A stretch of DNA of 64,000 nucleotides from Bryoerythrophyllum caledonicum (lineage: Eukaryota; Streptophyta; Bryopsida; Pottiales; Pottiaceae): contig OZ020514.1 of NCBI GenBank assembly GCA_963971425.1, forward strand, positions 40,523,158-40,587,157, in the 5' to 3' direction. The stretch's first letter is position 1. Every line of letters begins with the position of its first letter. The translations under genes and the position numbers were made by a program. This document shows, in pieces, positions 27,053 to 46,633 of this stretch. Below the pieces are notes generated by a model, which saw only the letters and a program-made list of their open reading frames with translations, had not been told where the DNA came from and searched no databases.

Positions 27053-29376
27053 ACTAGAGGTTTGAACAGCACTTTCAATATGGAAATTAGACAATTGATT
27101 CCACAGCTTATTACGGAAGCTGGAGGAAGTATAAACGGCAGACAAATTATGATAAGTACCATAGATGTTGAGCATAAAAGACACTTTGGTTAACTCATTT
27201 TGAAATAAATGGCGTTCTTTTGTGGTGAATTGTTATAACAATATGGATATTGTTGTATAAATGGTTATATCAAGAACAAGTGGTTGTTCATTACCATAAG
27301 CGTTAGAATATTGACAAGGTTAGTAACATGAATTTGTATATTAAAATTCTTTCGAAGTGATCTAGTGAATTGTTCAAAGAGAATTAAATTCTGCGGAACC
27401 ATCAATGGAAAAAGAGTGAAAGTATTCAAAAAGAGTTCACCATGCAACTACAAGAAAAAATATATTTGTGAAGTAAGAAAATTTTGGCAAAAGCCACGTT
27501 GGCAAACTAAGCGCAAATACTTGACTACTAAGACCTCAAAAACTGGAAGCTTCCAATTATATATATGTAGTAGTAACTTTTTCAAATTGATGTAGTTTAT
27601 GCTGACTTGGTGTTAATAGAGTCTCTAAATCCACTTGAATTAGGTTCGATTATGAGAATAAAAATCAAATGGATGTTTAAAGTAGTTTTGGTAGTTAAGA
27701 TGTGAAACGACTTAATTATGTATCCACCTAGAATTATAAGAGAAAGAGAGGAGGGCCAAGGAAACACTACACACTTAGTTTTGAGCAATTACGTTTTACA
27801 GTGTTAGTCATTATCTTAGCTTGATCCACTTGATCATGTTCTGTCATCGATTGGAGTTTTTCTGTGCCTGTATAGTATTAGTGGTTATATTCTGATCATA
27901 TCAACTCGATTCACTATACACATATATATACTATCAAATCGATGTGTGATCAACTAGATATGAGACGGATTACTGGAGTTGCTTGGTTCCACCTGTAACA
28001 TATCAACTGGATTCACTAACTTGTATACACCTTGATTGCAGCTATCTAATTGATCTTAAAGTCAGGGATTGGGGAGTATGTTGAATCATAGTTAGGAGTG
28101 TTAGGGGGAGTCCATAGTTGAGTTAACAACTAGATGAGAGAGAGAGAGATCAAATTGATAAGTGGGATTCTAGGAGAAGTCCAAGGTTGCCTGAGAGTTA
28201 TAGCCGTGACTATCCACTGGATGTAAAGAAGTTAATTGTAGAGATGACGATCCTACAATAGCTATGATTTGAATTTTCTATGAATTGGAGTCAAGTGCAG
28301 GTTACTAAGTGTGAGAGTAATATACATGCTTCAAATTATAACATAGAAAATACCAAGTCAACAAGAAATATGAATGCTTGATTGAATTATGTTCTGCTGG
28401 AAATGTGTTAGGCCAACCATATCCATTAGATAATTTACTAAATGATTTGACATACAAAACCATTCATCCAATTGAGAATAATCTACTTGATAGGACGTAT
28501 GTGCAGCCTTCATCAAATAGAATATTATAACTATGGTTGGAATTAATTAAGTCTTTGTATTTAAGGAAAATCAGGATGGTAAATTGATATGTGGAAATCC
28601 ATGAATTGCGATCAAGGCATTCGACATACATAAGGTTATAATCTCAATGGAGAATTGAGATCAATTTAGAAGAAGTAAAGATGGAATAAAGTGGAACGGG
28701 AGAATTTCATGAGCTAAGTATTAAAACCCTAATTTCAATTACGCAACATGGCATAATATAATTCGTAAATAGAATAAGGTGAAGGAGTTTACAATGTTGT
28801 TACTATCAAATTGATTATGGATACACCAACTGGATACTAAGGTTACTATCAAATTGATTGGACTAAGAGCGTTTCAAAAATACTAATCAATTTCTTAAAA
28901 AAATATACTTTGGGTTAATTCAATAACAATCACAATTACAACCTTCATGTGACCTTAAGCTACTTATACACTAAACGAAAAGATCCATTCCCTATAGAAG
29001 GTCCTAGAATTGAATTGCATGGAGTGTTTCGATGAATTCAATTAAAGATAGAATTTTCTATGCTACAATATACCCGCCCCCAGCACCTCCAATTATCACC
29101 TAGTGGCAGCCATGGCAGTATTACGTTTTGAGGAGCCATCCCGTCGACAAAGGTCTTTCGATTGACAGCATGAAGTTTGCTACGCTGTATATATTGAACC
29201 CGAGGAGGAGCTCCAAACGATATGAGATAAATGCGAGCATGACAACACAGAAACAAAGTATTGGAATTACCAGTAGTATATTACAAGGATAAAAATCATT
29301 GCTGTATTTATGAATACAAAAACTTAAGGACTGTGAATTCATGATATTGATAATTCATGCATGTTATGTAAGATGT
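27053..29376. other. AT-rich stretch with recurrent TCAAATTGAT / CAACTGGAT words
   Basis: No convincing coding frame. Short words such as ATCAAATTGAT and ATCAACTGGATTCACTA recur near 27895-28020 and 28795-28870. A purine tract followed by TGTTGAATC near 28068-28085 resembles a copia PPT/LTR start, but I found no partner repeat. A slightly GC-richer patch at about 29060-29250 has open frames on both strands that I cannot assign. Confidence 0.35.
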
Positions 29377-29575
29377 CACGGGATGTGGCGTCGACGACGA
29401 CACCACATCTCGTGGTGTTAGCGGAGGTTAGATTAGTTTAATCTATGTTAGTTTATGTGAGGACGTGCGTTTGACGCACCGTAGTCATCTGGTGGATGGA
29501 TTTCATCCATATAGTATTGCGGTTGTGTGTATACCGCCGCATACGTCCTTGACTTGACGTCTTTGTCAAGTCAAG
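29377..29575. repeat. Cluster of six consecutive inverted repeats
   Basis: Six hairpin-forming inverted repeats follow one another in 199 bases. 29377-29414: 17-bp arms with two imperfect pairs and a 4-base loop. 29429-29445: TAGATTA/TAATCTA. 29465-29479: GTGCGT/ACGCAC. 29493-29510: overlapping TGGATG/CATCCA or ATGGAT/ATCCAT. 29519-29537: GCGGT/ACCGC. 29548-29575: CTTGACTTGAC/GTCAAGTCAAG, perfect 11 bp with a 6-base loop. Such dense structure could be an LTR R region, a packaging or replication signal, or a transposon end. Just downstream (29580-29610) TTAGTGAG recurs three times. Confidence 0.7.
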
Positions 29576-29582
29576 CTTTGTT

Positions 29583-29610
29583 AGTGAGTTAGTGAGTTTT
29601 AGTGAGTTCT
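29583..29610 (+). repeat. Three copies of TTAGTGAG
   Basis: A short direct repeat, TTAGTGAG-TTAGTGAGTT-TTAGTGAG, directly follows the hairpin cluster. On the minus strand a purine run (CTGGGGGAGAA, opposite 29671-29682) lies on the other side and resembles an LTR polypurine tract, so this small segment may be part of an LTR in minus orientation. The LTR reading is inference. Confidence 0.4.
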
Positions 29611-29639
29611 TTGCTTGTAAGTGATGGTTTGTCATTAGC

Positions 29640-31088
29640 AAAGGCTCCGCATTCACTACTTAGTTGCGCTCGTTGATTCTCCCCCAGTGGAGTGCGTGCC
29701 ATTTGACTTCTTGTGGGAAACACATGTATCTTTCACTTGACAAAGACCACTCTTTCTCTAATTGTGTAAGACTTACAACATTATGATTTGATTGATTTCA
29801 ATGATGGTAGCATTTGTGGACGCTCATGGTTGTTAAAGCGTACAAACGTTGAGTTGTAGAAGAGTTTCTAAGGAGCACCTGCAAAGCACAAGTTTCTAGA
29901 GCCTAGTGTTAGAGCTTGATGTTGGAGTTGGGAGGTGAGAGCTCGATTTTTCATCTAGACTTGTTTGATGGTTCATCCATCCGCCCCTCATCCGTTTGCG
30001 AGTTCCATCCCGACTGCAAGCACATATAGGCTAAAAGCAAGCCCAACTAGGAGCGCCGAGATCAATGAAGAGATGTGGGTCCGGGCAAGGAAGTCAATTC
30101 ACATGAAAGACGTGGGCAGCTGCGCCCACGGTGAGTGAGCGAGTTGAAGCATGACATCCATGTCAGGCTAATTGGAGGTCGGGACAACGAGGAGCGCCAA
30201 GAGTACCGGTTCGTGGGGAGCACAGGCTTAGGTATCATCGGGGGTAGGGGCACTTCCATGTTGTAGCAGGTTATAGCGACAGGGTCAACATGGCTCTACG
30301 ACCTTGGAGCAAGGAAGCACCAGGAGCCCAATTGCAGTGGGACATAAGGCCTAGAGGTACCCAATAGCGTGCCGAAATCTCTATCCCGTCAGTTTTTTAG
30401 CAAATTTCAGAAGTCTCTGGCGTTGAATCATCCAAAATCCAACTTTTGGAGTTTTAATTATTTTTAAATTTTGACTTTGGATTTGAGTTCGTGAAAATTT
30501 TAAGACTAGTCATGCAAAAAAATTTTAGTTTGCAACAAAAATATTAGTTTGCAACAAAAAAACATGTTAATGTGACTTCAAAAAATTAAAAAAGCTAGTG
30601 TCTAAATTTAGTAGTTTGCAAGGGCATTTTGACTTGGATGTGAGTTAAAAGTTGAGCCTTTAATTGGGAAATTTGCCATTTTAGTCTAATTTTAGTGTTG
30701 GATTAGCTTGTTGACGCGTTAAATCAATCATTGTGGCAATTGCATTGGGAGGATTTGTGTTCCTAACACCGCGGTCAATGCCCCTCTATTTCTTTAGTTT
30801 TAGACATTGAGGGGAATACTTGCAAGTGTTTCTCTTTGTATTGTAGCTTTGCGACTCAGGCCATCCACTGCAGGCGTATGCTAGTGGCTCTGACCCCTAG
30901 TCCATTCTGCTTTTATGATGTTGGGGGAGAGGATCCGGTTTTGAATTCTGGATTCTTGTGCGGTACCTCCCTCGGATAGCGGGCTTGTTGCCGGTGTTTT
31001 CCGATGGCCCCATTTCCTATCGTACTAGATTGTGATAGGATACTGTAGGGATGAAGTTAGGTTTATGGCCGGCAAGATCTTTTTCTGT
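29640..31088. other. Unassigned leader region before solo LTR C
   Basis: No coding frame is firmly supported. A patch at about 30120-30340 has protein-like plus-frame sequence (VRLIGGRDNEERQEYRFVGS, TGLGIIGGRGTSM) broken by stops. A purine tract, TTGGGGGAGAGGA, occurs near 30921. The final part (about 30700-31088) is moderately GC-rich and, given that the solo LTR splits it from 33096, probably belongs to the 5' LTR or leader of the methyltransferase-bearing element. I could not match it to the 3' end of that element. Confidence 0.35.
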
Positions 31089-31093
31089 GGGGG

Positions 31094-33090
31094 TGTAGAG
31101 TGATTTTTCACCACTCTAGGAAAACACCCAAGTATACCCACCTCTCATAGGATTCGTTACGGGGATGATCATACGCCTAGTTTTAAGTAATTGGAGATTA
31201 ATTGTGTCGTTAAAGCTATCTTTTTGGTTAATTCTTAAGGTTATCTATCTATTTTAAGGAAATTAGGGCTGTTAGCATCACTCTTGAAGGGATCCACAAA
31301 CAAGTCTAACCCCAAAGGATCTCTCGTGCCTTAAAAAGGTACATTAGTCCTTTTAAGATTGTGCTTATGCCACTAATTCTTAAACATCTGCCACACTGGG
31401 CTAATGGAAGTTTCCATTAAGTCTCATTGCATTGGTTCTTTAATTATAGTCTTTATGAACTCAAATTCTTACCTCATGCAAAATTGCTCCACTTTTCACG
31501 TCCGTCCACTCGGTCCACGTGATCACGTTCTTAAGACAAGGGTTAGTCTCAAAAATCACATACACAAGTCAACTTAAGTCTTAAGGAGTTTCAGCTCTTA
31601 AGCCTCCACTTAAGTTCACATATCCCCACTTAATGTTTAAAGACTACGGTGTTCTACACTTACTCGTACCACTTAGTTCTTAAGATCTCTGACTAGTTCT
31701 TAAGACTTCATTCTCGATCGTCTCCATGTTCTTAAGGACACAGTTTCTGATCCTTAGTTCTTAAGCACTCACTTACTCATTTAGGCCTCATTCTTAAGAA
31801 CCTGCACTATCTAGACCAATTGAGCCCTACAATGTTCTTAAGTTTCTGTCTTGAGACTTCCAGAATCGGGAGTGCATCTCACTGAATGCAAATGTTGTCC
31901 CGTGTTCTCACTCATACGAACCTTTAAGTCCAAGCCTTTAAACTTAAGGGTCTCCTGGTACTTAAGGTCTCAACCTTCATAAGATTATGTATCCAAACTT
32001 GGACTTAAGATTCTTAAGTTTCTATGTTTTCTTCTTAAGTCTTTCTTCGGGATTTGTTCCTTGTTTTCTCTCTTATGATAGATTCTTAAATACTCACAAC
32101 TTAGGCTACCTTAGAGAATCCCTTCTATTAAGGCTAGACTTAATGCTAATTTTTTTGTATGCATAATATGACACTCTTGCCATGCATCAAGATATGCCAC
32201 TCTTGATGTTTATTGCATAAATTGCATTAACATGAATAAGAACTCCACTCTTATTCTTATGATACTCAAGTTATGCTCACTCACACTTGAGATCTTGTTA
32301 AGTACTTATGCACCACACTTCTTATGCACTAAGTCACTTAATTTCACATTATCTCCATTAATCTTCACAATTATGATTAATGCTCCAACACACACACAAG
32401 GTCACACACAAGGTCACACACACGACCTTAGTAGTTAGGATATTTCCCAAACTTATTCCATGAAGAATAAATATACAATGCATTCATGCATAGGAATTTT
32501 ATCCACAATTAATACCTAATGCATGCACTTGCATTTACAACACACAATGTCAAATTTATGCAATGAAGTTCACATAATATTGCAATTATACATATGACTC
32601 AAGTCACAAGACTCTACATATGCAAATTCAATAACAATTATATATTCATATATAAAATTAAATACTCTTACAACATTAAGAGTCATCAACTAGCTCTTTC
32701 ACCTTAAGCTAGGGCTCACTCCAATCTTCCTCCAATGAATTTCTATGGTAATGGCCAAGAATGCTAAAAATTCAAGCTAATCATTCTACTCAACATCGAA
32801 GAGGTACACCTCTTGGCAAGAGATTTTCCTTATTATTAACCATTAAGATTAATTCCACTAAATCTTCACATCTCTTCATATCTATTCATGGAAAGGTGCA
32901 CCCTATCCAAAGGGTATGAGTTCAACCCTTTTCCCATTATTTCCTATTTCTTGGATATGAATAGGTACTTTCCAATTAATTAAGTACTTAGTGTAAACTT
33001 AATCATTAATTTTTAAATTCTTCATATATCTACAATCTTTTTAACACTTAATTTTCGGAAAAAATCTATTTTTGTCATTTTGGCTCTACA
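31094..33090 (-). mobile_element. Solo LTR 'C' with 5-bp target duplication
   Basis: This 1,997-bp segment starts TGTAGAG and ends CTCTACA, perfect 7-bp terminal inverted repeats of the LTR type, and is flanked by GGGGG at 31089-31093 and 33091-33095. Read on the minus strand it is a diverged relative of LTRs A and B, sharing the G-box block (CACGTG at 31516-31521), the palindrome near 32799 and the CCCTTTGG word near 32915. No internal element sequence is attached, so it is a solo LTR left by recombination. It lies inside the 5' region of the methyltransferase-bearing gypsy element and is therefore younger than that insertion. Confidence 0.85.
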
Positions 33091-33385
33091 GGGGGGATGT
33101 GGTTGGACTTGTGATAGTCGGAGGTGATAACCGGTAAAGCACATAGCTTGGTGATTTTGTAAGTGCAGGTCGCCCTTATCCTATAGATAGTTGCAGGTAT
33201 CCGATAGTCAATTTCTGGTGAGCACCAGGAGTCGGTATTATCGCTCCCCCTCACTAGACTTTCCGGAGAATGCATCGCATTTAGACTTTGGGCCAGGGAC
33301 AGATACCAACGAGGCTTTAGAGCCTATTTTGGCGTTGGATACCGACCGTAGGCTTTGGGTCTAGAGTGTGGGTACGTTCGTCGAC

Positions 33386-34777
33386 ATGGAGGACAATCAC
33401 CGTCAGGCTGTGCGTGATCGTTTTCCAAGTTGAGCTAAGGGCATCTCCGTACCCGATTGGCGGCTTTGATTCCAGCCGTAGCAGAAAGAGAAGCGCCAAC
33501 GGACGCCGTCGTTTAACGATTGGTATGCGTTTGAGCTCTTGCCCCAACATTTGGCGTTGGAGGCTCTTCAGCCATACAGGTGGTGGACCATGCAGCACGA
33601 TGCTCAGTTGCGTCTTGTTGAAGAGTACTGACGCGAGCGTGTGGAGTTGGTAACTGTGCTCAAGGAGAGTGCGGTTGCCCAGCTCTCGGCTTCCACCAAG
33701 GAGCCCAAGGTAGAAGAGGGTTTCCTCGGTGAGAATTGTAGGGGCAAGGACATTATTGTTGTGGCCGAACGGTCTGGCATGGGGGCCATGTCACGTTTGG
33801 CCATGGCTATATGTACGGCATTTATGGCAGTTGGCGATCCGCTAGCCTTCGATCCTTTGGCACAATTCATGGCGCACTTGGAGGTGGAGTACAGGGGATT
33901 CAAGCGTGATCCAATGCAGGGCATCCAGGAATTCCGCCTGGAGCAGGACGATATCCCACGCATTATGTTTACCCAGTTGGCTGCTAAGTCTAGCGAGAAG
34001 GCAGAGGACAAGGAAAAGAAGCCGGTCACTTATTCGTATTGTAGCAAGTTTAGCCACAGTGAGGAAAATTGCTTCGTTCTTTACCTAGTCAAGCGTTTTG
34101 GGCCTTCAAGCGCTGGATTTGATGCGATGAAGACACTTCAGATTGAGATTGCCGAGCTGAAAAAGCATATGAGCACAATGGCCTTATTGGGGCAAGTGGT
34201 AGATACCAGTGTGTCGGTGCGGCGTCCAAGTTTATCTTCTGCTATGCATGTCTATTTGTATGGCGCTTCCATGGAGGTTGTGGCTGCAGTTGCCACTCGT
34301 GTTCAGACCATAGCACAGGCAGTGTAACCTTCATCCAGTGTACCAGTTACCAGTGGTCGTCTACGCCATGTGGGATTATCGGACCACATTGGTCAATCAC
34401 GGCTACAAGTGTTGTTTGGCATTGCGGATGCAACAGCTACCCGTGCCGCTTCCCCATTGCCTAGCGTACCACCAACTTCTTCCACTCATGTGGATGCCGC
34501 TCATTCCTTGGCGTACAAAGTGTTGCGGTTGCTGGAGTTTGTCGGTGTAGACTTTTTGACATCGGATTTTCAACCATCCAGTGTATTTCAATTGGCAGAT
34601 AGCATGTTGGAGGGCAAGGAGCCGATGTCATCATTGGAGGTGTTGCAGGCAGCGACGGCTCCACCTACCGACGAGAATTAAGTGGCAATGCGGGCCAAGT
34701 CGGCGGCGGAGGTTATTTCCGCGTTTGAGGCCAATGCTACATCCACACTTATGGAGTAGTCCTCCGAAGATCAGTCC
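33386..34777 (+). pseudogene. Gag of gypsy element 2
   Basis: ATG 33386 opens MEDNHRQAVRDRFPS and the frame continues through stops: FNDWYAFELLPQHLALEALQ, then RERVELVTVLKESAVAQLSA, a segment near GDPLAFDPLAQFMAHLEVEY, and a zinc knuckle region TYSYCSKFSHSEENCFVLYL. In the knuckle the first Cys position of C-x2-C-x4-H-x4-C reads Tyr (TAT), which fits TGT to TAT. A coiled, Ala/Ser/Pro-rich linker follows to about 34680. In-frame stops include TGA 33431, TGA near 33626, TAA 34325, TAA near 34679 and TAG near 34757. Gag would form the particle. Confidence 0.75.
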
Positions 34778-35450
34778 TTGATCTTTGGAGTGGCTAATTT
34801 GTCTAATATTGTAGCCCGGTCGGCACGAGAGCGACCGAATGTGTGTCGAGGGGTGGTACGCTTGGTAAACGATGACGGAGTCATGGTGGTTGGTTGTGCC
34901 GACGGCAATCCCTTCCGAGCTACCCCCCTCCGTGTTAAGTTGGACTCCAGAGCTCAGCCAGTGATGATTGGCAAGTTGTTAGCCCAAGATTTGGGTCTAG
35001 GTGCTTTGGACCTCGACCATTTTTCATTTACAATTGTTACATCAGTAGGGGGCACGGAGAAGGCCATAGGCTACATCCAACATCCGTTGCAGTTAATGTT
35101 TGGCGTGGGATCTAATCCTTTGTTCTCCCACGTTTCTCTCCAATGCGCGATGACTAGCGCCACCAACTACGACATTTTGGTGGGTCAACAGGCGCTTTAT
35201 CCCCTCAGTTTCAGGGTGGATAACTGGACGGAGGAGGCTTGGATTAGGCGTGGGTGGTCTGCGAGTGATGGCAGAAAGGAGATCATTCCAGTTGCCTTTG
35301 CAGCTAGCGCAGTGACTTCCATGGCGGATGCAATGTACGGGTGCAATGCTTTGACATCCAATTTGCCATGTGGTTCTACGCTTTTGGAGGAGACATATGC
35401 TTTTATGTCCGGGTTATTGGAATCACGTGAGCACAGATCACTAGAGATCC
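34778..35450 (+). pseudogene. Retropepsin-like protease of gypsy element 2
   Basis: The frame reads TPLRVKLDSRAQPVMIGKLL, AQDLGLGALDLDHFSFTIVT and SATNYDILVGQQALYPLSFR. The layout (strand, L-D-S-x-A, then I-G-x-x-L-A, then Y-D-I-L-V-G-x-x-x-L-Y-P) is that of gypsy aspartic proteases. The catalytic D-S-G triplet reads D-S-R, a Gly-to-Arg change compatible with one G-to-A transition. It is fused in frame to gag upstream and to the methyltransferase downstream, with no stop between 34778 and 35773. The enzyme would cut the polyprotein. Confidence 0.75.
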
Positions 35451-35599
35451 CTACACTTCATTTCAAGGATCTCATTCCTCCATGGGGAACTCATTTGGAG
35501 CTCACACGCCGCAGTTGGGAGAATGTGGAGGCTATTGATGCTCCCCACCTTTCAGTGAACTCTTCCACTCCGTTGTTGGCTCGTACTATGCAGTGGCGA

Positions 35600-36612
35600 C
35601 CACCGGATGAGGGTATTACCTTTGTGGAGTTATTTGCCGGTATCGATACTAGACTCGCGGCTGTGTTAGAAGCCGAGCTTAAGGTACGACGGTATATCCA
35701 GGTGGATTTTGGTTTTGCAGCCAACCGTGTTGCTCACCATCACATTCAGCGTCTTCTGGCGTTGTATTTGGATTAGTTACCACCTTCTGTGATTCGAGGG
35801 TATTTTGGCAAGTTGCCACGTGATGTGACGTTGATCAGTGAGGATGATCTTCGCCGGTTAAGTCACGTGGACTTGGTGATTGCCGGATGGCCTTGCCAAC
35901 GCCATTCACGAGCAAGCAGTGGACGTGGCTTGGATGATCCACCGTCGGGTCTCTTTGCGGATTTGCTCAGGCTCATCCATCGGTAGACTATCCACCAATC
36001 AATGCCACCGGGGTACATTTTTGAGAATGTACTCCAATTAGGAGATACACAAATGAAGGAGCATGAAGATGGGGCATATATCCATCACCTTCTTGGCCCC
36101 TCCACGCTTGTTGATGCCGTGGCGTTGGGCTCTTACGCCCATCCACCACGTTGGATTTGGACCAACATGACATCATCCACATTGCTCACCTCTACACTTG
36201 CTCAAGTGCAAAGGCCCATGCGTCGTGAGGTAGATGACAAATTGGACGACCACTGTGCTTCCACAGAGGTTACCAAGGTTGATGAGCCATCATTGGCCGT
36301 GGTCAACCGCATTGGTTTTACACAGGGGCGTTTCCCACGTTGATGTGCTACCCGGGATCTTCTGCTTTTAGGACACGCGGTCCGAGCATGGTTTGAGATT
36401 CATCTTCCCAAACTTACGAAGAACCTTATGCCGATGAAAGGGATCAGGCGATGGGCTTTTTGACAAGCACCGTCACCGCACCGGATCTCACTGAGGGCGA
36501 GCGTCATTATTTGTTGGGTCAAGCCATTGACCTCAATACCCTCGTTTGGATATGTGGCCTCTGTTTTGTCGCTCGAAGCCGTTTGAGTGATCATCCACGC
36601 ATGTTGGGGGTA
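35600..36612 (+). pseudogene. DNA (cytosine-5) methyltransferase domain within gypsy Pol
   Basis: Canonical motifs occur in linear order. Motif I is FVELFAGIDTRLAAVLEAEL (from 35621; the second glycine of the F-x-G-x-G loop reads Asp). Motif IV is VDLVIAGWPCQRHSRASSGR, with catalytic Cys at 35894-35896, then GLDDPPSGLFADLLRL. Motif VI is the GYIFENV segment (Glu-Asn-Val at 36023-36031). Motif VIII-like is LGSYAHPPRWIWTN. A motif IX/X-like end reads ADERDQAMGFLTSTVTAPDL, ERHYLLGQAIDLNTLVWICG. The order I-IV-VI-VIII-X is that of DNMT3/bacterial enzymes, not the permuted order of plant DRM. The protein transfers methyl from SAM to cytosine C5. Stops at 35774 (TAG), 35984 (TAG) and 36341 (TGA) and a frameshift before motif X inactivate it. 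It lies between protease and RT. Confidence 0.88.
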
Positions 36613-37021
36613 GACTCTGATGGCTAGGGGGCAACGGTGCCACATCTCACAGAGATTGAGGAAGCGGAGTTGTTTATTTATTGAAGAGGCATGTTGTTGA
36701 GGAGCTTCGTACTCAGCGTGTCTTTGTAGCCTTGGCCGAGGACTTTGGTCGAGAGGTTGCCCGGGATATCTTTGCCCGGTTTTATCATCACGACATGGGA
36801 ATTTTTGTGAATCTTGTGAGTGAAGAGTGTGGGGGCATGAATGCCTTTTTTCCTACCAAGTAGCAATCACCGGTCGTGCCGGTAAACGGTGAGACTTCTA
36901 CGGTGGAGAAGGAGACCACGGAGTTTGAAGATTGGCCTTTAAATTTGGGGCCACGTCTTACCTGTGCGGATGCAAAAAGGGTACGAGCGTGTATACGTTC
37001 GTATCGTAGTTGTTCTGCCTT
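36613..37021 (+). pseudogene. Connector between methyltransferase and RT
   Basis: Protein-like sequence in one frame: VVEELRTQRVFVALAEDFGR, EVARDIFARFYHHDMGIFVN, LVSEECGGMNAFFPTK, TAG at 36861, then an acidic linker with GETSTVEKETTEFEDWPLNL and a short helix RVRACIRSYRSC. It has no motif I recognise. Position and continuity in frame with the RT suggest it is the RT N-terminal extension of this element family. Confidence 0.55.
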
Positions 37022-37900
37022 TAGTCTCTATGATTTGGAGGGCTATAGAGGCAAACCAATTCACATCCAGTTGGAAGACGACCACTCGATCTTCCGACGA
37101 CCGTACAAGCTCAGTTTCTCTGAGAAAATTGGGGTTTAGACTCGTTGTCAGGAGTTGTTGGCCGCCAGCTTTATTGAGCTATATAACGGCGAGTACACTT
37201 GTGCCACGGTCATGCCATCAAAAAAAGATATCTTTGGCAGCTGGACGAAGAAGCGGATGTGTGGGGACTACAGGCAGGTCAATCGTAAGACCAAGTTGGA
37301 TCGGTATCCCATGCCCACGCCAGAGGAGTTGTTTGATGTGATAGAACACGCCAGAGTATTTAGTACTCTAGATTTGCGGTCCAGTTATCACCAATTACCA
37401 TTGATGGTGGACGACCAGATGAAGACCGCATTCTAGGGATATGATCTCGATGGAAGAGATCAGCTCTACCATTGGAAGTTTCTTCCATTTGGCCTCAAGA
37501 ACGCACCCGTTGAGTTTCAGAGGGTGATGGACCGGGTGTTGACCAGTTTACGGTTTGCCCGATGCTACATTCATGATGTTATTTTTTTTAGTAGCAGCCC
37601 ATAAGAGCATGTGAGGCATCTTCAGGCACTGTTACGGCAGTGGGGATTGCACTTGTACCATCGCAAGTGCAAATACTTCCATGACCGGTTGCCAAACTTA
37701 GGACATATTGTTCCAGGAGGTCTTGGCGTGCAGCAAGCAAAGGTTGACGCGCTGCAGAAGATTCCTAATCGACGTGTCACGCCTCAGAGCTTTTCTTGGC
37801 TTGGCGAATTACTATCGCCGATTTGTCAAGAACTTTAGCTTGATTGCCAAGCCGTTGACTATTCTCACGGAGAAGGATCAGCTATGGACTTGGCGACGGG
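37022..37900 (+). pseudogene. Reverse transcriptase of gypsy element 2
   Basis: Gypsy RT landmarks are HIQLEDDHSIFRRPYKLSFS, KKRMCGDYRQVNRKTKLDRY, PMPTPEELFDVI, HARVFSTLDLRSSYHQLPLM (first catalytic Asp), [20 protein letters not shown] and [12 protein letters not shown], where the usual Y-x-D-D box has His in place of the first Asp. Then come HLQALLRQWGLHLYHRKCKY and, in a shifted frame, [23 protein letters not shown] at 37137 and 37434 and TAA near 37601 look like former CAG/CAA. A frameshift occurs near 37770. It would have synthesised cDNA. Confidence 0.85.
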
Positions 37901-38363
37901 AGTAGCAGGCATTTGCTACTTTGATGTTGAAGCTCGGTTCATTGCCTCTACTGAGGCATCTAGATGCTATACGGCTTTCCACTTGCACACAGATTGGAGT
38001 GTTGTAGGATTAGGAGCCGTGTTGACTCAAAAGGATGATGAGGGACGGGAGTACGTTGTGGCGTTTGCTTCTAGGAGCAACAACAAAGCAGAGTCCAGCT
38101 ATTTGTCCTATGAGGGAGAAGCTTTGGCCGCGGTTTGGGCCATAGCTTATTTTAGGCCCTAATTGTGTGGGCAATGTTTTACCTTGGTGACCGACCACCA
38201 GCCTTTCAAGTGGCTCATGGAGTCTGACAGGCTACTGACAAGCTTTCCGGGTGGGCTCTGTTGCTTCCGGAGAACAACTTTGAGGTTGTACACCGGGCGG
38301 GCATCACTAACTTGGATGCGGATGGGCTATCGTGCAATCCAAGTCCGTCGGAGGAGGATTTGA
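37901..38363 (+). pseudogene. RNase H of gypsy element 2
   Basis: The frame holds [20 protein letters not shown] (first Asp of the active site), [40 protein letters not shown] (catalytic Glu) and, after TAA 38160, FTLVTDHQPFKWLMESD (third Asp). All three acidic residues are kept. This is the Ty3/gypsy-type RNase H that follows the RT in the polyprotein. The flanking tether is broken by frameshifts. Confidence 0.8.
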
Positions 38364-38694
38364 CTCGTGCTAGGTGGCATGGGGACTGTGATAGAGAGGC
38401 AGTTCCGGGGTGCGTATAGGGGCCTACCTCAATTTGATGTCTAGCTCAGCGTCAACGTTACCTGATATGGGAGCGGATGAAGAACCGGACAAAGCCTAGG
38501 TTGTTAGCGATGTGTGGGAAGACGTTTTAGTCTTGCACAAACTACAACATGGCATACTTCTGCCCAATCATTCGGCCATGGAGCGTGATTGAGTTGGACA
38601 CCGAATAGCAAGGTTCCGTTGGGAGAACGGCCTTCTATTTTGGTTGTAGCCAGATGGGACTAGGCGCATAGTTTCCAGACCGGATCAAAGGGCT
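38364..38694 (+). pseudogene. RNase H-integrase spacer, heavily decayed
   Basis: This stretch between RNase H and integrase carries short protein-like pieces on the plus strand with several stops and no single frame. It would correspond to the spacer before the integrase zinc-binding domain. Confidence 0.4.
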
Positions 38695-39623
38695 TTGTTG
38701 GTACGGCAAGTACACAAAGACCTTGGACATTTTGGCGTGCGACGGACTCATTCAATGTTGCACAGCCAATATTGGTGGACCGGCATGTTTCAGCAGGTCG
38801 CCACGTACGTTTCACGGTGTGAAGTCTGTAATCGGGTCAGATCCAGCTTCAACACCTTGTCACCACTCTTACAACCATTCTCCATCATGGGTTCAGGCTC
38901 ATGTTGGTCTCTGGATTTTGCGGGGCCGCTTGTTGTCACCCCACGTGGAGCGATGTACGTGTCGGTGATGGTGGAGCACTTTAGCAATTGGATTGAGCTT
39001 GTAGCACTACCACAGAACTCCTCGGAGTTGGCGGCCATGGCATTCCTTGACCGGGTGCTGGCTCGTTTCGAAGCCCCAGCTGAGGTGATGACTGTCCAAG
39101 GGCGTGAGTTCCTTGGTGCTTTCGAGGCTTTGTGCACCAAAGCTTTGATTGACCACCGTACCACTGCTCGGGATCATCCGGAAGCGAACGCTTTGGCGGA
39201 GCGTGTGGTTCATACCATCAAGCGTGGAGTACGAAAGTATGAATTACTTTGGGGTGGCCATTTGATTGGGATCTGATGATATTATGGATCGCCATGGGAT
39301 ACCAATTTAGCCGGCAGGTCTCTTTCGCCGCTTTCAATCCGTATCAGTTGTTGTACGGATGGGAGCCGATTCTTCCCAGTTCTGTATGGTAGAAGTGGGC
39401 CCCAGTTGTGGACTTGGATGATCTAGAGGTCTCGATCCAATGTTTGCGTGATCGGGCGGAGCTCTTCAAGCGGGCCATGCCAATGGCCATGGAGAATTTA
39501 TCCATCACTTAGCATCGCGACACGTTACAGTACGCTCGCATTCGCAGCGGCGCTTACAGACCTCAATTGCGGCGTTTCTCCACTGTAGATTACGTTTATT
39601 TGTAGCGTGAGGCGCCTACGACA
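38695..39623 (+). pseudogene. Integrase of gypsy element 2
   Basis: The N-terminal H-x-H-C-C zinc domain reads QVHKDLGHFGVRRTHSMLHS and QYWWTGMFQQVATYVSRCEV, C-N-R. The core has CWSLDFAGPL (first catalytic Asp), FEAPAEVMTVQGREFLGAF, where the second Asp position (T-D-x-G) reads Val, and HPEANALAERVVHTIKRGVR (Glu present). After 39276 the frame shifts and continues with FSRQVSFAAFNPYQLLYGWE and, after more stops (TAG near 39391, 39511 and 39604), YARIRSGAYRPQLRRFSTVD, the usual C-terminal region. Integrase inserts the cDNA. The Asp-to-Val change alone would abolish activity. Confidence 0.85.
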
Positions 39624-39983
39624 TTGGACGTCAAGGCCGAGCGCACCATTCTTCGTGTGAAGAATGTGTTGCTCAGTGGCATCTTGTTGATAGAAGGCAA
39701 AGATGGCCGGGAGTTTTGGGAGCACTCCAAGAACTACGCGCCCTGCCATTTGCCCATTGATGGCTCCGTGCATCCTGAGTTGGCCGTTGTGCCACAGGGT
39801 CTTCCGTGTCTTGTGTATGGTGAGAAGAAGGGTGCGGCTACCATGTTATTATGCGACCGTTGTAAGCGTGGCTGGCATATGGCTTGCTTGACGCCGCCCT
39901 TGTCTACTCTATCGCCTGGGGATTGGACTTGCCCTCGTTGTAGGAGGTCTTCGAGCTACGTTTCATCAGATGAAACAACTTGA
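39624..39983 (+). pseudogene. PHD zinc finger at the C-terminus of gypsy Pol
   Basis: After the integrase tail (DVKAERTILRVKNVLLSGIL), a PHD finger follows: GLPCLVYGEKKGAATMLLCD, RCKRGWHMACLTPPLSTLSP, GDWTCPRCRRS. The spacing fits Cys4-His-Cys3. The second Cys of the first pair reads Tyr (CLVY), consistent with TGT to TAT, so this copy may not bind zinc fully. PHD fingers read histone H3 tails. At the end of an integrase one could target insertion to marked chromatin, as chromodomains do in chromoviruses. That role is inferred. Confidence 0.8.
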
Positions 39984-40302
39984 TTTTTTCCTGGACATGT
40001 CACTAGTATGGTGTCCTGCCATTGAGTTGAAGTTCCCGGTTTTGTTTCAGGGATAGGCTACATGGAGATTGACCAAGGGATTGGCAACAAAGTTGCCTAA
40101 GGCGATTAAGGATGGGGCTCACATCACACCTCGCATATCCTGTCTTAGTTACTTCTCTATTGGTTCATTGATGCGGCAAGGGATTACATCTTCAACTGGA
40201 TGTGTACAGTTGTTGCAGCGGCATCACTATGGCGACTGTCTACATAGTGTTGTTTGGTCCTAGCCGGATAGAAGGTCTCTTTATCCGCTAGGGGGAGCAT
40301 TT
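39984..40302 (+). other. 3' untranslated region and polypurine tract of gypsy element 2
   Basis: Non-coding tail after the PHD frame (the frame ends TGA 39981-39983). It ends with CTAGGGGGAGCATT at 40289-40302, a good LTR-retrotransposon polypurine tract, directly followed by TGAGGGTGTACTACG, a plausible LTR start. I found no second copy of this LTR in the window, so the LTR length is unknown. Confidence 0.5.
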
Positions 40303-41428
40303 GAGGGTGTACTACGTATACTTGTTTTAGTATATGTTTTTTGTTTATTTGATGTTGGTTGTGATTCTCAATCTATTGTGTTTAGCGATCTTCGTTTACA
40401 CGGCAAAAATATTGATGAAAAAAATTAATAAGAATTGTAAAAAAAAAATTAAAAACAAAACAAAACAAAATAGAAGTTGTGAATTAGATTTACCACCAAA
40501 AGGAATGCCGATAATCATTTATATTACAAGATTAAAAACTGATTGCAATAAGACAAGACAAATATGTTATAAGCATTAGTTAATGATTGATGTAGAGAAT
40601 GTATAGTGAGACCACCTTAAGAGAAGTGATTTTAAGAGAGGTTTGAAGAGAGGTTTTAAGAGAAGTGATTTTAAGAGAGGAGTAAAGAACCTTGAGTTCT
40701 AAAGTCTGAGAATATGTGAATTTTATTTTTCTTAAATTAAAATGAAGTAATAGCCAATGACCTTGAAAAAAACAATTAGAAAAAGGATATACCTATTCAT
40801 AGTTTTAAGTAGTGAAAATAAGCTTAAGGACAATAAAAAGATATCATAAAGTTTAGGTACTTAGAGTAGTACCTCACATGTCCGCGTTTTAAAATTAAAA
40901 ATATATATATATTTGAACATAAATAAAAGGTAAGAAATAATGGAAAAATAAAATAATAAAGTGGAATTAGTGGTAAGGAGAAAAATAAGAGAGAACATGA
41001 TAATAAATGAGAGCTGTCATGATTAGATAAAATTAGTGCAATTATTAGTATAGGAAAATCCATCTACTTAATTATGTAGAATGTTTTGAATTAAAAAATC
41101 AATGAGAATAGAAGTGAAGAAATAGCAGCATCAGGATCAGTAAATATACAATTGGAATGCGTTCCGATGACTAATATACTAAGGCTTATGGCTTGTTACT
41201 TGAAAGAAAACTCAAAAAGCAAAAACAAATACACAAGTATGTAAATGAAGGGAAAGATATTATAACTCAAGGTGTAAAGTGCAAGAACAAGAAAGTATAA
41301 CAGATAATTGGAATGAAGACTTAAAAGAAATATGAAGAGTAAAGAACGAGACGTAGCTAAAAGATGATATTTCAAGGACAAAGGTTGTTGAAGTCAACGA
41401 GGACGTCTCTCAACAAAGACGGAGGCTA
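40303..41428. other. AT-rich stretch, including putative 3' LTR start and a tandem repeat
   Basis: No coding frame. The first part may be the 3' LTR of gypsy element 2. At about 40617-40683 AAGAGAAGTGATTTTAAGAG and related units recur (two to three copies of a ~40-bp unit). The rest is A-rich DNA up to LTR B. Confidence 0.4.
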
Positions 41429-42804
41429 TGCAGAGCCAAAACCTTTAAATTGGACTTCTTCACAAATTTAAGTGTGAACATGGTTGTGGATATTTAGAGA
41501 ACTAGGTATTTAATACTTTGTTTTAGACTTAAGTAGTTAAATTCTTAAAGTGGACATGTTTACAACAAAACCTTAAAGAGTAGTGTGAAAAGGTCAAAAG
41601 CCACACCCTTTGGTTGGATTGCACCTTTAAGTGAAAGGATGTGAGGATGTTATGGCATCAACTTTAATGGTTGATCTTGAGGAAAAATCCTTTCCAAGAC
41701 GTGTACCTCTTGGATTTCCCAAGACGTCTACCTCTTGGATTTTCAATAGTATAAAGACCTTGAGAAATTGGCATTTGTGGCTATTTCCACAAGGAGCTTT
41801 GGAGCGAGTTCTAGCTTTTAGACCAAGCTAGTTGGTGCCTCTTAAGGTGTAAGAGTTTACTTATTAATATATATTATTATTGCATTTGTATGTCTTTAAG
41901 TCTTCTGGTTGTGACTTAAGTCATGTGTATGTGCATTAATAGGTCTTTATTATTAGTTTAGGGCAGAATCCCAATCATTAAGGCGACGTGCATGACCTTA
42001 TGTGTGTGTTAAGCATTAGTCATAAGTATGTAAGACTTATTGGAGTTAATGTATCATAGTCTGATTTAATGCACCAGTGGGTAATATGCATAAGTATAGA
42101 CTAAGGTCTTAAATAGGACGGTGAGAACGTAAGGACCTCAAGATTGAGTGCAGTATACTTAAGTAAACAGGGTCTACAGTGAGGAAGCACGTGAGTAGAA
42201 GTCAGTAGTTTTAAATCTGAGTGTTATTATTGAAGAAACGAAGGGAATAAATGTGGGACACCACTTACATCAAAGGGTTAATCATAGCCATGATAGATTC
42301 AAGTCAAAGCTTTACAGGTGCATTATTAGATCTTGAATCAACTCGTGTATGGATTATAAGACTAACCTTGAAAATAAAAATTCTATCACGTGGATCGGTT
42401 GGACGGACGTGAGAAGAGGAGCGGTTGCATGAGGTAAATTTGTGATTATTTAACATAGCATAATTAAAGAACTCATGCATTGAAACTTGATGGAATATTC
42501 CATCAGCCCAACGTGGCATAGGTCTAGGAGTGGGTGCACAAAACATAATCTTAACATGAATAATGTATGTTCACTGATATAATGAATCCTGGGAGTTAAC
42601 AGTGCATCACCCTTAAGAGTGATGCTAAGAGAGACCCATTTCCTTATAGCATAGTGAATATCCTTAGGTATTAACCTGACGGGTAGCTTTAACTATCTAA
42701 TTAGAATCCAATTACTAAACAACAGACGAAAGGTCATCCCCGAGAGCGAATCCAAAGTTACGAGAGTATCTTGGGTTTTCCTTGAGAGTAGAATTTTGGA
42801 TTCA
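41429..42804 (+). mobile_element. LTR 'B' (direct copy of LTR A)
   Basis: About 1.38 kb starts TGCAGAGCC and ends GGATTCA(CA). It aligns end to end with 9051-10443 in the same orientation. It has two, not three, 25-bp promoter repeats (41694-41743), TATAAAG at 41750-41756 and the G-box at 42387. It may be the 3' LTR of the element that begins with LTR A: ATTAT precedes A at 9046-9050 and ATTAC follows B at 42807 if B ends CACA. It could also be an independent solo LTR. An antisense 80-codon open frame (42304-42546) is a shadow also seen in A. Confidence 0.75.
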
Positions 42805-43183
42805 CAATTACATTAGATGAATAAAAGAATCTTAAGTAATTAATTAAGAATTCACTAATACTAGCCTAAGGTAAATGGAATTTGACCCAAATAAATCTAT
42901 TTGAATCAATGGTGACTTTAGAATAACTAACAATAACTCACCGTTGAACCTACATAAAAAAATTCAAGTACAAATTGAAGGAAAATAATATTAACTGAGA
43001 AATTCACTTTAGTTTGATTTCAGCTGACTTGGACTATAGTTCCTTGACCTTTGCCTTTAACAATCTGTTTCTTTTACTGTTTGTTTTTTTTTCTTTAATT
43101 CTTTTATTAGTTGGCTTTAACTAATTTATGTGACTTCGTATTATTACAGTTATGACTTAATCACAACTTCAGTGACGACGGAA
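42805..43183. other. AT-rich stretch, host side of the hAT insertion
   Basis: No gene is seen. This unlabelled DNA lies between LTR B and the left target duplication of the hAT element. Confidence 0.5.
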
Positions 43184-43191
43184 CCGTGCAC

Positions 43192-43380
43192 CAGGGTTGA
43201 TTTTTCACAAAGTTTTAACCCGTCCATGTCCGAAAACCTTGAATTGAACGGCAAAAAAAATTGCAGCCCGTCCCAAAACCGGTAATCTCAAAACCAACCC
43301 GTCCATGGAAAGGTTAAAAAAAAAACAACCCGTCCCAAAACCGGTTCAAAAAAGAAATACCCGTCCCGTATGTTTATAAA
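43192..43380 (+). repeat. Left hAT terminus with subterminal AACCCGTCC repeats
   Basis: ACCCGTCC-like motifs occur at about 43228, 43264, 43298, 43328 and 43360, several followed by CAAAACCGG. Related motifs (AACCTGTCC, AACCCGTCC, ACATGTCCC) lie at about 46938, 46988 and 47025 near the right end. Clusters of short repeats next to the termini are the usual transposase-binding sites of hAT elements. Binding is inferred. Confidence 0.65.
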
Positions 43381-44041
43381 AAAAATTATATTAAAAAAAA
43401 AACCAAAAAAAAAACCAAAAAAAAAACACAAAAAAAGAACAGGCAGAGCCTGCAGGCGGCATATGCTCCGGAGATTATTCGCTGGACCTCGATCTGAGTT
43501 CGGTGATTTGTGCTCTCGATGTCGTCTTCTTCCATATCCTCACTTCCTTCTTCTGCGCTTTCTAGAGGTTGCAGGTTGAAATCTGTGGGTTAGTGAAGGT
43601 CAGTGATCCATGGCGCCTCGATGGTTTTGTTCATGATGTTGCCTGCCTCACATTAGGATCCCGGAGACCTGAGGTTGTAGGGTTGGTTTGCCGGGTTTGC
43701 GGATAACACTGAACGTCTGAATTCTGTTCCATTTGCCGAGCTCTTGCTTGGGTGTAAAGAGTGGTTGCAACTTGTCTTTTTTCAGGTTGCTGCAGAGCTT
43801 GGCTTGGCCCGGCTCTGAAGCCTGGCCTGGCCCGGCCTAAAGGCCCGACCCGGCGAAGCTCTGCAGCTCAGGTCAAGGCTGAGGGTGCACAGGCTGCACA
43901 GACTGCGAGGCTGCATAGGCTGCAGAAACTGCGAGGTTCAGTTTTTGGCTCATTTTTTTGGGTCCAGCTGTTGCACAGCTCAGTGGTGCGTTTTCAGCCT
44001 GGTTGTGATTTTTCGAGGTGGACTAAAGCTTCAGGACCTAG

Positions 44042-44202
44042 GTATGTTTGTTTACTTTGATATTTCTTATTTTTTTTCAAGTGATAGAGAAGTAATGTAT
44101 ACAAGAAATCAACATAGAGTCTAGGTTTAAGGTAAGTTACACATTTAGGGTTTTTGTATTTCATGTGTGTGGTGATTGATCTGTTTTGAATATGTATTGC
44201 AG
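44042..44202 (+). other. Probable 5' UTR intron of the hAT transposase gene
   Basis: Donor CCTAG|gtatgt at 44041-44042 and acceptor ttgcag ending at 44202 bracket an AT-rich segment just before ATG 44205. The preceding GC-rich segment (43770-43940) has repeated GGCTTGGCCCGG and AGGCTGCA words and would be the leader. Confidence 0.5.
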
Positions 44203-44204
44203 TT

Positions 44205-46633
44205 ATGTCTTTGCCAGTGTCTGGAGTACCCAGGCAAAGGAGAGATGCCCGGCAATAGAGCATTCTCCATATGTTTAGGGCATCTTCTTCTTCTCAAACT
44301 TTGAGTGATGGGAGGAATGAAGTGCCTGAGTTGTCAGAATCTTTTGTTAGGGGTTCTCCATGTGGTATTCCTGATGTTGAGGTAGAGCAAGGTGGCGTTC
44401 AAGGTCATGATCAGATCAGAGAGGACATTGAGATGGAGGAAGAGAATGAGATGGGGGAGGACAATGATTTTGATGATAGTGCACATGAGGAGGATAGTAT
44501 AGGAGTACAGGTTCCAGCTCATGGTGGTGGAGGGCGGCCTCCAAGGGGGAGGAAGTTTATGCCCGTATGGCGTCAGGGAAGGCCCTGGTTGATGCACATT
44601 GCTCTCTCTAGACAGAAGTCCTACATGAAGTGTGCAGCATGTCAAGCATCTGGTCAAAACTTACGATGGGGGACCAGAGGAGAAGGTTGTGAGTCATTGC
44701 AACTTTTAGCTGTGAAGGAGCATGAAGGATCAACCCTTCATGCTCATGCCATGCTCAGGTGGAGACCGGTGAGAGATAACCCTGAGGCACTTGCCATGGC
44801 TAGACATGTGGTAAATGCTATTGATGCAGAGAGTGCTAGAATTGTTTGTTGTATGTAGATTTTATACCATTTGGTAGTTAATGATAGAGCTATCAACCAG
44901 TATGAGGATATGTGTCAGATAATTAGACACCTCAGGGCTCCAGACATGCCTGTCAATGATGAGTACGGTGCTTACACTAGTAGACAATCTGCATATGATT
45001 TTTTGTGGGCCATTTCACAGCATTTGAGGGATGTTGATCTTTTAGAAGTTAGAGATTCACCGGTGATCTCTCTTCTTATAGATGAATCAACCGATCGTAG
45101 TCTAGAGCAGCATTTGATTGTGTATCTTTGCAGTCTATCTCGTGGTGGCTTAGGCCCTCCACGTATGCAGTATGTTGGTTTGTCTGGTGTTCCACGAGCC
45201 ACATGAGAGGTATTCTATAGGAATGTGGTGGATTTATTGGAGGAGTTGCAGTGGCCTCTTGACAAATTAGTGGCTTTAGCTACTGATGGAGCGGTTTCTA
45301 TGACTGGGGTGAGACAAGGACTAGCAGGCAGACTTCGGGCAGATGTACCAACACTTGTTAATGTGCATTGCATTGCACATAGGTGAGTCTTTAATTTTAA
45401 GTTTTTTTTAATGAATTTCATTATTTTCTAGAATGTAATATATTCACTAATTAATTCCCGTGTTTGTTCAGAGATGCACTGGCAGCCAGCGATGCAGCTG
45501 AGGCATCACCGGAGCTACAGGTTTTGGATGATTTCTCCAACTTTGCATACTCGTGGGTGGGCAGGTCATCATTGCGGCGGACACAGCTTGATCAGTTGAT
45601 GCTGGAGTTTGCGATGGATCCATTGGTTGTTCTCCACATACATGGAGTTCGATGGTTATCCCGTGGACAAGTGATGCAACGGATTTTGGATTGTATGCCC
45701 TCGTTTCTGGAGTTTTTCTGTGAAGAAGAAGCAATGTGGTATCGTAAACTCACATCCTTTCAGTTTCAATTCCTTCTACGGTTACTTGTAGATATTCTTA
45801 CTGAGTTGAATAAACTCAATAAGCTATTTCAGAGTGACCATGTGGATATTACTCAGATTGGAGGTCATTTAAACATTTGTATCACAGTATTGAGTAGACA
45901 TTTTCTAGCAGCTAGAGGTGCAGCATTTGGAAGAGGTTCAAGGGCATTGTGGTCATTTTTGGAGACCTGTGCAACTTCTATGGAGATGGAGTATCCAATT
46001 GCAGATGGTGGCCTGAGAACCTATCCAATGCATTTGGAGAGTGTTACTAGGAGAGCCGGTACTATTGAGGAGTGCAAACTCATTGGGGCAGAGTATGTGC
46101 AGAGGGTGGTGGATGCATTGAATAACAGGTTTCCAGACTTAGGCATCTTCAATGCATGCAAGCTCTTCAGCCCCAATCTCTATCCTGCAAATGATGATGA
46201 GAGGACTCGTATTACTGAAGAGTGGTTGGAGAGGTTGTTTGTGAAGTTCCAGAGTTCTGAAGAAGAACAAGATCGGTGTCGAGGTGAGTGCTTGGAGATG
46301 GTAGAGACCATGAGAGAGATGATCCCAAATAAGTCTTTATTTGAAGCATGGGAGTTTGCAGGTACAACTCTAGAGTGGTCCATCAATTGGCCTGGTTTGA
46401 GTAACTTGTGGAGGAGAGTTATGGTGATTCCTATGAGCACTGGAATATGTGAGAGGGGTTTTTCCAAACAAAACCTAATCAAGAGTCATCTCCGTACTAG
46501 GTTGAAGTTGGAGGCTTTAGATGCTTTGATGCGCATTTCATGTGCAAATATTCCAGTTGAAAACATTATTTGGAATGCAGTGATGCTTGTCTGGAGAAAC
46601 ATGAAGGATAGGAGAATTCATCCACTTGTTTGA
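44205..46633 (+). pseudogene. hAT transposase, two coding exons, three internal stops
   Basis: Exon 1 44205-45382 and exon 2 45472-46633 join in frame across a GT-AG intron (AG|gtgagt ... ttcag|AG) to give 780 codons including the stop. Features in order: an acidic N-terminus; a zinc finger of the BED/TTF type (MKCAACQAS ... KEHEGSTLHAH); first DDE region VISLLIDESTDRSLEQHLIV; second region ALATDGAVSMTGVRQGLAGR and HCIAHR; then VRWLSRGQVMQRILDCMPSF; and the C-terminal hAT dimerisation domain VIPMSTGICERGFSKQNLIK, SHLRTRLKLEALDALM. The protein cuts and reinserts hAT ends. TAG 44256, TAG 44856 and TGA 45204 interrupt exon 1. No frameshifts are seen. Confidence 0.85.
45383..45471 (+). other. Intron of the hAT transposase gene
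   Basis: An 89-bp AT-rich intron with donor AG|gtgagt and acceptor gttcag|AG. Splicing turns CAT-AG/A-GAT into H-R-D and keeps the reading frame. Confidence 0.75.

Follow-up and report, generated by a model that had tools for sequence, protein, structure and literature searches.

Does the DNA cytosine-5 methyltransferase found inside a retrotransposon of the land plant Bryoerythrophyllum caledonicum belong to the element that carries it, and what would such an enzyme do there? The locus lies in a window of 64,000 nucleotides (contig OZ020514.1, positions 40,523,158 to 40,587,157 of the forward strand; coordinates below are those of the window unless a copy is named), which holds a decayed retrotransposon of the Ty3/gypsy lineage with a C5-methyltransferase located between the protease and the reverse transcriptase (RT). 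A first-pass annotation of the sequence had proposed this order for a gypsy element, and the proposal was upheld: as judged by sequence comparison, the window copy is dead but belongs to a Ty3/gypsy-lineage family that was active recently and in which the methyltransferase is a conserved trait under purifying selection, like the enzymes of transposition.

The window copy is heavily damaged. Its first open reading frame (ORF1) has lost the start codon, its main frame (33215-36343) is broken by 11 stops, and the frame changes twice. P0002, a public relative of ORF1 with an open frame, maps by tblastn to 33215-36860 in frames 2, 2, 1 and 3, and P0017, a relative of Pol, maps to 36876-39968 in frames 3, 2, 1 and 3. 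Gag, protease and methyltransferase had been read as sharing one frame over 33386-36343; this reading fails, as the interval holds 10 stops and another frame encodes the final two methyltransferase motifs. A single polyprotein that includes Pol does not stand either, as Gag-protease-methyltransferase and Pol are split by a conserved stop. The methyltransferase is indeed followed by RT, RNase H and integrase, each matched by Pfam: in stop-free pieces of the window, RVT_1 is weak (0.00029, under its cut-off) and RT_RNaseH_2 reaches 3.4e-18. The PHD finger that ends Pol was absent from the domain list of the first-pass annotation. The methyltransferase lies in the region where it had been placed, with the domain extending to ∼36582 and ORF1 to the UAG shared with other copies, and the element as a whole is larger than had been assumed, running from repeat A to repeat B with a 2.0-kb insertion in its leader (Table 1). 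Protease, RT, RNase H and DDE integrase follow one another as in Metaviridae; in the window, RT falls short of its cut-off and the protease has decayed. Among the relatives, Asp_protease_2 was matched in all five that were scanned and exceeded its cut-off in two. No chromodomain, the mark of chromoviruses, was matched at 1e-3 at the integrase C-terminus of seven proteins, where a PHD finger is found instead.

The methyltransferase motifs occur in canonical order, as had been claimed, and all were located: FVELFAG at 35621, WPCQ at 35888, FENV at 36020, PPRWIWTN at 36143, ERDQAMGF at 36436 and LLGQAIDLN at 36511, which we take to be motifs I, IV, VI, VIII and IX/X. The DNA_methylase profile match that had been proposed as a check was obtained (PF00145, 2.2e-8) from a 69-amino-acid stop-free piece alone (35777-35983). 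Regarding the class of METHYLTRANSFERASE, a profile of 12 domains hits DNMT3A/B/C first among solved structures (∼1e-20), followed by 4onj (4e-13), DRM2 (3e-10), HaeIII (1e-9) and DNMT2 (2e-5); 4onj, the entry of which reads only DNA methyltransferase, is presumably tobacco DRM. Neither DNMT1 nor CMT has an entry among the 57 profile matches. The motif order of the family's methyltransferase is canonical, unlike that of the rearranged DRMs, and the domain has no introns. F-x-G, P-C, E-N-V, R-x-R and W-T-N do not vary among the 12 domains; the Q after P-C is retained in 11 of them and that of the final motif (L-G-Q) in nine. An AlphaFold2 model of the P0002 domain attains a pLDDT of 85.6 and a pTM of 0.86. 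By profile and motif order, the methyltransferase is of the Dnmt3 type. In the methyltransferase tree, the window domain clusters with P0002-P0007 (support 100/100), and in the integrase tree the window clusters with P0017 and P0018 (support 97/96).

The dead and interrupted state of the window copy could suit a passenger, i.e. a host gene inserted by chance into one copy, and the first-pass annotation had pointed to other copies lacking the domain at this position as the mark of such an event. We searched the host assembly (437 Mb) for copies in two ways. In a PF00145 scan, 123 loci were scored among 1052 first-look candidates and all 123 exceeded the cut-off; membership in the retrotransposon family was verified for the fetched copies only, and the copy analysis was made without loci L002-L008 of this list. 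In an integrase scan, we took the best 150 of 5076 candidates, each with at least 83% identity, and every eighth row of these plus the last row provided a Pol-based sample of 20 copies that is blind to the methyltransferase. The domain lies directly upstream, with more than 150 of its 330 residues, in 16 of these 20 copies; one further copy carries 93 residues and three carry none. In addition, all ten copies picked by hand for their long open frames have intact methyltransferase motifs. Between two subfamilies (C3_26.4 versus C7_14.46), the methyltransferase exhibits a dN of 0.072, a dS of 1.70 and an approximate dN/dS of 0.04, with values for the same pair of 0.02 each for RT, RNase H and integrase, 0.07 for the PHD finger and 0.13 for the protease. 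Within the window subfamily (7 copies, 21 pairs), the dN/dS of the methyltransferase ranges from 0.08 to 1.76 and is below 0.5 in 18 pairs. From the selection analysis, the protease and Gag rows with C2_18.87 were dropped, as the protease match, and perhaps the Gag match, seems to lie in a second element nested downstream. Across nine proteins of a close clade, mean pairwise identity is 0.82 for the methyltransferase, 0.87 for the protease and 0.66 for Gag.

Several of these results weigh against a conserved and selected domain. The three copies without a methyltransferase and the one with a partial domain are either damaged or members of a lineage that lacks it, and the 20 copies came from the best-scoring 150 of 5076 candidates. 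Some of the sampled copies that do bear the domain are decayed: L051 reads PSQ, for example, L047 has a stop within motif VI, and motif VIII is disrupted in L056. The dS between the subfamilies is near saturation, which is why the dN/dS of 0.04 is approximate, and within the window subfamily dN/dS exceeds 1 in three of the 21 pairs (all with dS ≤0.021); a further pair in addition to the 21 (L051, L054) has 0.70. Nonetheless, because 16 of the 20 sampled copies carry the methyltransferase directly upstream, the domain is not a chance insertion. We regard that explanation as having next to no chance of being correct, refuted as it is by the copy survey, by the purifying selection and by the public relatives, and at odds with the number of DNA_methylase loci in the assembly (at least 123, one of them bacterial-type, with membership checked in fetched copies only).

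In public protein data, a search with the methyltransferase region (stops as X) returned 15 proteins of 1228-1775 amino acids with 78-41% identity, all with PF00145 listed. Their layout is Gag, zinc knuckle(s), protease with D[ST]GA (15/15), methyltransferase and tail; none of the 15 contains RT, although the lengths searched (∼825-2625 amino acids) would admit a fusion. An integrase search returned 24 proteins, with Riccia sorocarpa, Calypogeia fissa, Sphagnum fallax and Closterium as named hosts, and the nearest named integrases are those of Riccia, Calypogeia and Sphagnum at 60-62% identity (Sphagnum over 66% of the query). A PHD finger is present in 15 of the 24 Pol relatives according to a precomputed domain list, several of the others being short, and was confirmed in six of the seven that were scanned. 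A third protein search, covering the best 8000 candidates by shared words, added P0041 and P0042. The position of the methyltransferase varies between lineages, since P0025 (methyltransferase and RT in one ORF), P0041 (a gypsy Pol of 1649 amino acids in which RNase H and integrase flank the methyltransferase) and P0042 place it differently; in the methyltransferase tree these three, together with P0037, are long branches of unsure placement. The tail of P0041 behind its PHD finger resembles, by eye, a small reader-type domain. No protein named K. nitens occurs among the relatives matched, many of which are nameless, and no relative was found in viral contigs scanned with P0002 and a Pol alignment.

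The stop that separates ORF1 from Pol is itself conserved. All ten hand-picked copies end ORF1 with TAG, followed by CAACCA in nine and by CAATCA in one. A methyltransferase-based sample of 20 copies (19 rows at steps of three from rows 4-61, not already fetched, plus one with a long frame) exhibits TAG-CAACCA in 16, and the Pol-based sample exhibits UAG-CAR-YYA in 15 of 20, as CAATCA in 11, CAACTA in three and CAACCA in one, the latter two wordings having been located by pattern at the expected place and not by alignment. If even base frequencies are assumed, CARYYA would stand behind a given stop by chance about once in 512. In tobacco mosaic virus RNA, CAR YYA after UAG is described as essential for readthrough, with tyrosine inserted (PMC2754532). 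The three components of a type I leaky stop, namely UAG, CAR YYA and an open in-frame extension, are present here. Because this context is both retained and rare by chance, Pol is probably made by readthrough of UAG, and the methyltransferase, which lies before the stop, would be made in Gag amounts. The context and the repeats described below were established in this genome only, the public relatives being known as proteins.

Pol could instead arise from re-initiation at a start codon behind the ORF1 stop. P0017, P0018 and P0020 begin Pol with MPA or MPS near the aligned stop, which fits re-initiation as well and thus counts against readthrough, although these starts may be choices of the gene caller. 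The junction is also unreadable as UAG-CAR-YYA in 4/20 copies of the methyltransferase-based sample and 5/20 of the Pol-based sample, being truncated, deleted or unaligned. On the other hand, in eight of the ten hand-picked copies the frame is open straight behind UAG and the first methionine of Pol occurs 15-116 codons on, and UAG-CAR-YYA is retained in three wordings. We therefore consider re-initiation improbable.

The termini exhibit a repeat layout of the DIRS type. In C7_13.3, a younger copy, A1 (1090-1456), B1 (10204-10309), A2 (10308-10672) and B2 (10668-10773) are arranged as A-coding-B-A-B, and five further copies likewise have A1, A2, B1 and B2, with 98.7-100% identity of A1 to A2 over the full repeat. 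The left end has A only, such that the coding region is not flanked by two complete identical long terminal repeats (LTRs). The A1/A2 pairs are 98.6-100% identical (6 copies) and the B1/B2 pairs 98.7-100% (7 copies), which points to recent activity of the family. The B1-A2 junction reads CACGACA-GC-TGTCA in eight of the ten hand-picked copies, the remaining two being without A2. Window-type B was found in 14 of 20 sampled copies, as B-A-B in 11 and as a single B in three; the other six gave no match to the repeats, the queries having come from the window subfamily only. GC-TGTCA stands behind B in ten of the 11 sampled B-A-B copies (one with a changed base at the B end), and the eleventh is mutated. 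The element begins and ends with TG...CA (TGTC...GACA), and Ty3/gypsy elements typically have such ends together with target duplications of 4-6 bp. Both ends were sought in 14 copies (ten hand-picked, four targeted) and seen in nine, of which eight have exact 4-bp target duplications (AGCA, CCTC, TAGT, AAAT, AGGA, GGCA, AACT and GAAT), whereas L085 has none unless two extra bases are permitted. The repeats are thus of DIRS type, yet the integrase is of the DDE type and leaves duplications. A Pfam scan of the relatives' ORFs detected a DDE integrase and no tyrosine recombinase. Inside the elements of the ten copies, the ORFs of at least 250 amino acids, as judged without a Pfam scan, correspond to ORF1 and Pol, the latter being in pieces in some copies.

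Three of the nine copies with both ends seen, C1_59.8 (L021/L022), L083 and L085, consist of A-coding-B only, the first two with an exact 4-bp duplication; L097 also ends in a single B. The window copy is probably of this form as well, and its own duplication would be AAGA/AAAA, matching at three of four bases. A plain 3′ truncation of the window copy was rejected, as it ends at the end of B, as do three of the 14 sampled copies with window-type B. Recombination between B1 and B2 would be a simple explanation of the single-B form.

The decay of the window copy was assessed against C7_13.3. C>T or G>A changes are found at 15.3% of CG, 19.2% of CHG and 9.1% of CHH sites (7314 aligned positions), and A>G or T>C changes at 6.6% of A/T sites (region 33091-40406), the direction of substitution being approximate as C7_13.3 served as a stand-in for the ancestor. 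The excess of C>T at CG and CHG sites fits prolonged methylation of the dead copy in the past.

Plant hosts silence retrotransposons by cytosine methylation; that a retrotransposon should maintain a de novo-type methyltransferase of its own, and do so under purifying selection, is therefore paradoxical. We consider it reasonably probable, on the basis of gene order and the leaky stop, that Dnmt3 is packed in the particle and methylates the cDNA of the element before integration. Most ribosomes would halt at UAG, yielding Dnmt3 in Gag amounts, and readthrough would yield a smaller amount of Gag-Dnmt3-Pol. The protease would then free Dnmt3 within the particle, where it may methylate the newly made double-stranded cDNA ahead of insertion by the PHD-bearing integrase. 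A new copy would arrive methylated and may be shielded from recognition as foreign DNA, or its expression may be damped, limiting harm to the host. More tentative is the complete scheme, in which a land-plant gypsy element packs Dnmt3 in Gag-like amounts by virtue of a tobamovirus-type leaky stop, methylates its own cDNA and replicates via the internal B-GC-A junction, with a DIRS-like mechanism supplying a DDE integrase that carries a PHD reader, such that copies would be born methylated. Two observations count against a role in methylating cDNA: the decay pattern of the window copy is silent on which enzyme methylated it, and the domain of KnitGypsy-Dnmt3, a gypsy element of the alga Klebsormidium nitens, gave no methylation in yeast, a result its authors call inconclusive (PMC5890265).

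Dnmt3 might alternatively act in trans on host chromatin, being made in Gag amounts and entering the nucleus to perturb or compete with host methylation, with the PHD finger guiding insertion; the gain would then lie in shaping landing sites and not in marking the element's own cDNA. The full set of catalytic motifs and the chromatin-reader domain on the integrase side suit such a role, as does the methylation of genomic CG that SymbioDIRS-Dnmt3 domains achieve in yeast when expressed in isolation; however, the location in the Gag-protease ORF points to the particle, and K. nitens has a plant-like methylome even though its genome contains KnitGypsy-Dnmt3 (PMC5890265 for both published results). 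Action in trans is unlikely. Less likely still is that Dnmt3 serves as an RNA methyltransferase or nucleic-acid chaperone on packaged RNA, with DNA methylation not its role. The position beside Gag is compatible with this, and RNA methylation was raised for SymbioLINE-Dnmt by its authors (PMC5890265), whereas the profile clearly matches DNMT3 (1e-20) and fits the tRNA methyltransferase DNMT2 much less well (2e-5). Placement before the leaky stop predicts Gag-level Dnmt3 in the particle. In a genome with many copies, the dated ones with repeats 98.6-100% alike, the benefit of the enzyme to the transposon becomes testable, and the DIRS-type repeat layout combined with a DDE integrase calls for a different scheme of reverse transcription.

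Table 1. Coordinates of the retrotransposon features and of the leader insertion in the window.
Feature	Position	Strand	Basis
Left terminal repeat A1, begins TGTCACGGG	29374..29740	+	blastn to A of C7_13.3, 75% over 362 bases
5′ leader, upstream part	30355..31093	+	74% to C7_13.3 leader
Foreign ∼2.0-kb insertion in leader, TGTAGAG...CTCTACA, GGGGG flanks	31094..33090	+	Alignment breaks on both sides at one C7_13.3 site
ORF1 remains: Gag, zinc knuckles, protease, putative Dnmt3, C-tail	33215..36863	+	tblastn of P0002
Protease active-site region, decayed in window	34940..34957	+	D[ST]GA in 15/15 relatives
Predicted Dnmt3-type cytosine-5 methyltransferase domain, motifs I, IV, VI, VIII, IX/X	35600..36582	+	PF00145; 78% to P0002; right end by P0002 alignment
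ORF1 stop and putative readthrough context UAG-CAA-UCA (CAR YYA)	36861..36869	+	Sequence; like context in other copies
Pol remains: RT, RNase H, H2C2 and DDE integrase, PHD; interrupted by several stops and shifts of frame	36864..39983	+	tblastn of P0017; Pfam
Integrase zinc-binding (H2C2) and core (rve)	38650..39276	+	PF17921 2.1e-17; PF00665 2.3e-10
PHD finger, C-terminus of Pol	39822..39941	+	PF00628 2.9e-10
Right repeat B, single-B form, no A2/B2 match after	40301..40405	+	89% to B of C7_13.3

The surroundings of the element contain other mobile sequences. The leader insertion may be a solo LTR, outside the function of the element; it is ∼70% alike in its best part to an inverted sequence at 41429-42786, both being copies of an AT-rich element of ∼2 kb, the TGTAGAG...CTCTACA ends of which were read on the 31094-33090 copy. 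These 70% inverted arms around the coding part were rejected as inverted termini of the retrotransposon, since they are copies of this other element. A repeat search found no repeats of at least 60 bases within 30000-46000, and the window has no tRNA or Rfam matches. A remnant of a second, distinct gypsy-type Pol lies at 19637-22067, with 23-31% identity to the Pol relatives used, and two longer ORFs at 44259-46633 resemble, by eye, a zinc-finger and hAT-type transposase protein. Elsewhere in the assembly, the DNA_methylase locus L001 (G000:C14:16014858-16018817) encodes a full-length bacterial-type cytosine methyltransferase (2.4e-62) outside the retrotransposon family; it adjoins an ORF resembling, by eye, an insertion-sequence transposase in a 22-Mb contig, which suggests assembly contamination or gene transfer.

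In the open-licence literature searched, cytosine methyltransferases of retrotransposons are reported from two lineages only, Klebsormidium and dinoflagellates. The first-pass annotation knew of no gypsy element described with this order. A gypsy element with Dnmt3 is nonetheless known, whereas the literature searched yielded no Dnmt3 placed in the Gag-protease ORF, no leaky UAG or integrase-end PHD finger in such elements, and no family of them from a land plant. The comparisons with KnitGypsy-Dnmt3 and the dinoflagellate elements draw on PMC5890265 (de Mendoza et al. 2018), to which a later paper refers (PMC12344493). Like the family described here, KnitGypsy-Dnmt3 has the domains of a gypsy element together with a Dnmt3 that lacks introns, keeps the motif order and is under purifying selection, and its repeats are described as following the DIRS arrangement (Figure 4 legend), which the same paper gives as A-coding-B-A-B (Figure 1 legend). 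The DIRS-like repeat layout is thus not new in kind. Unlike KnitGypsy-Dnmt3, in which Dnmt3 resides in the Pol ORF, the family described here carries it in the Gag-protease ORF, ahead of a conserved stop that is probably leaky; its Pol ends in a PHD finger, a domain with no occurrence in the main text on KnitGypsy-Dnmt3; and its host is a land plant as opposed to a green alga. The gene content of the host agrees with this, with seven LFY matches and 15 dirigent matches (14 above the cut-off), two families characteristic of land plants. The two are set apart by published description and not by sequence. SymbioDIRS-Dnmt3 of Symbiodinium shares a retrotransposon Dnmt3 and A-coding-B-A-B repeats, but belongs to the DIRS class, has a tyrosine recombinase in place of a DDE integrase and carries Dnmt3 in the Pol ORF. 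Among the public proteins, P0025, P0041 and P0042 (Closterium sp. NIES-53) also join a Dnmt3-like domain to a gypsy RT, and P0025 and P0041 end in integrase and PHD as here, whereas P0025 and P0042 have the methyltransferase ahead of RT within one ORF and P0041 has it between RNase H and integrase. Sphagnum fallax BDL97_09G086500 (P0037) combines a Gag-like part, methyltransferase segments, the start of RT and integrase in one predicted protein, components also found here, but is a gene model in which parts of the methyltransferase are missing, with no DNA_methylase match at 1e-3. The stop and the six bases that follow it are those of tobamovirus type I readthrough, UAG CAR YYA (PMC2754532), with the difference that here the putative readthrough context lies between Gag-protease-Dnmt3 and the Pol of a retrotransposon. 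The central idea, a gypsy element equipped with Dnmt3, has published precedent, and it is the anatomy of the present family that is new.

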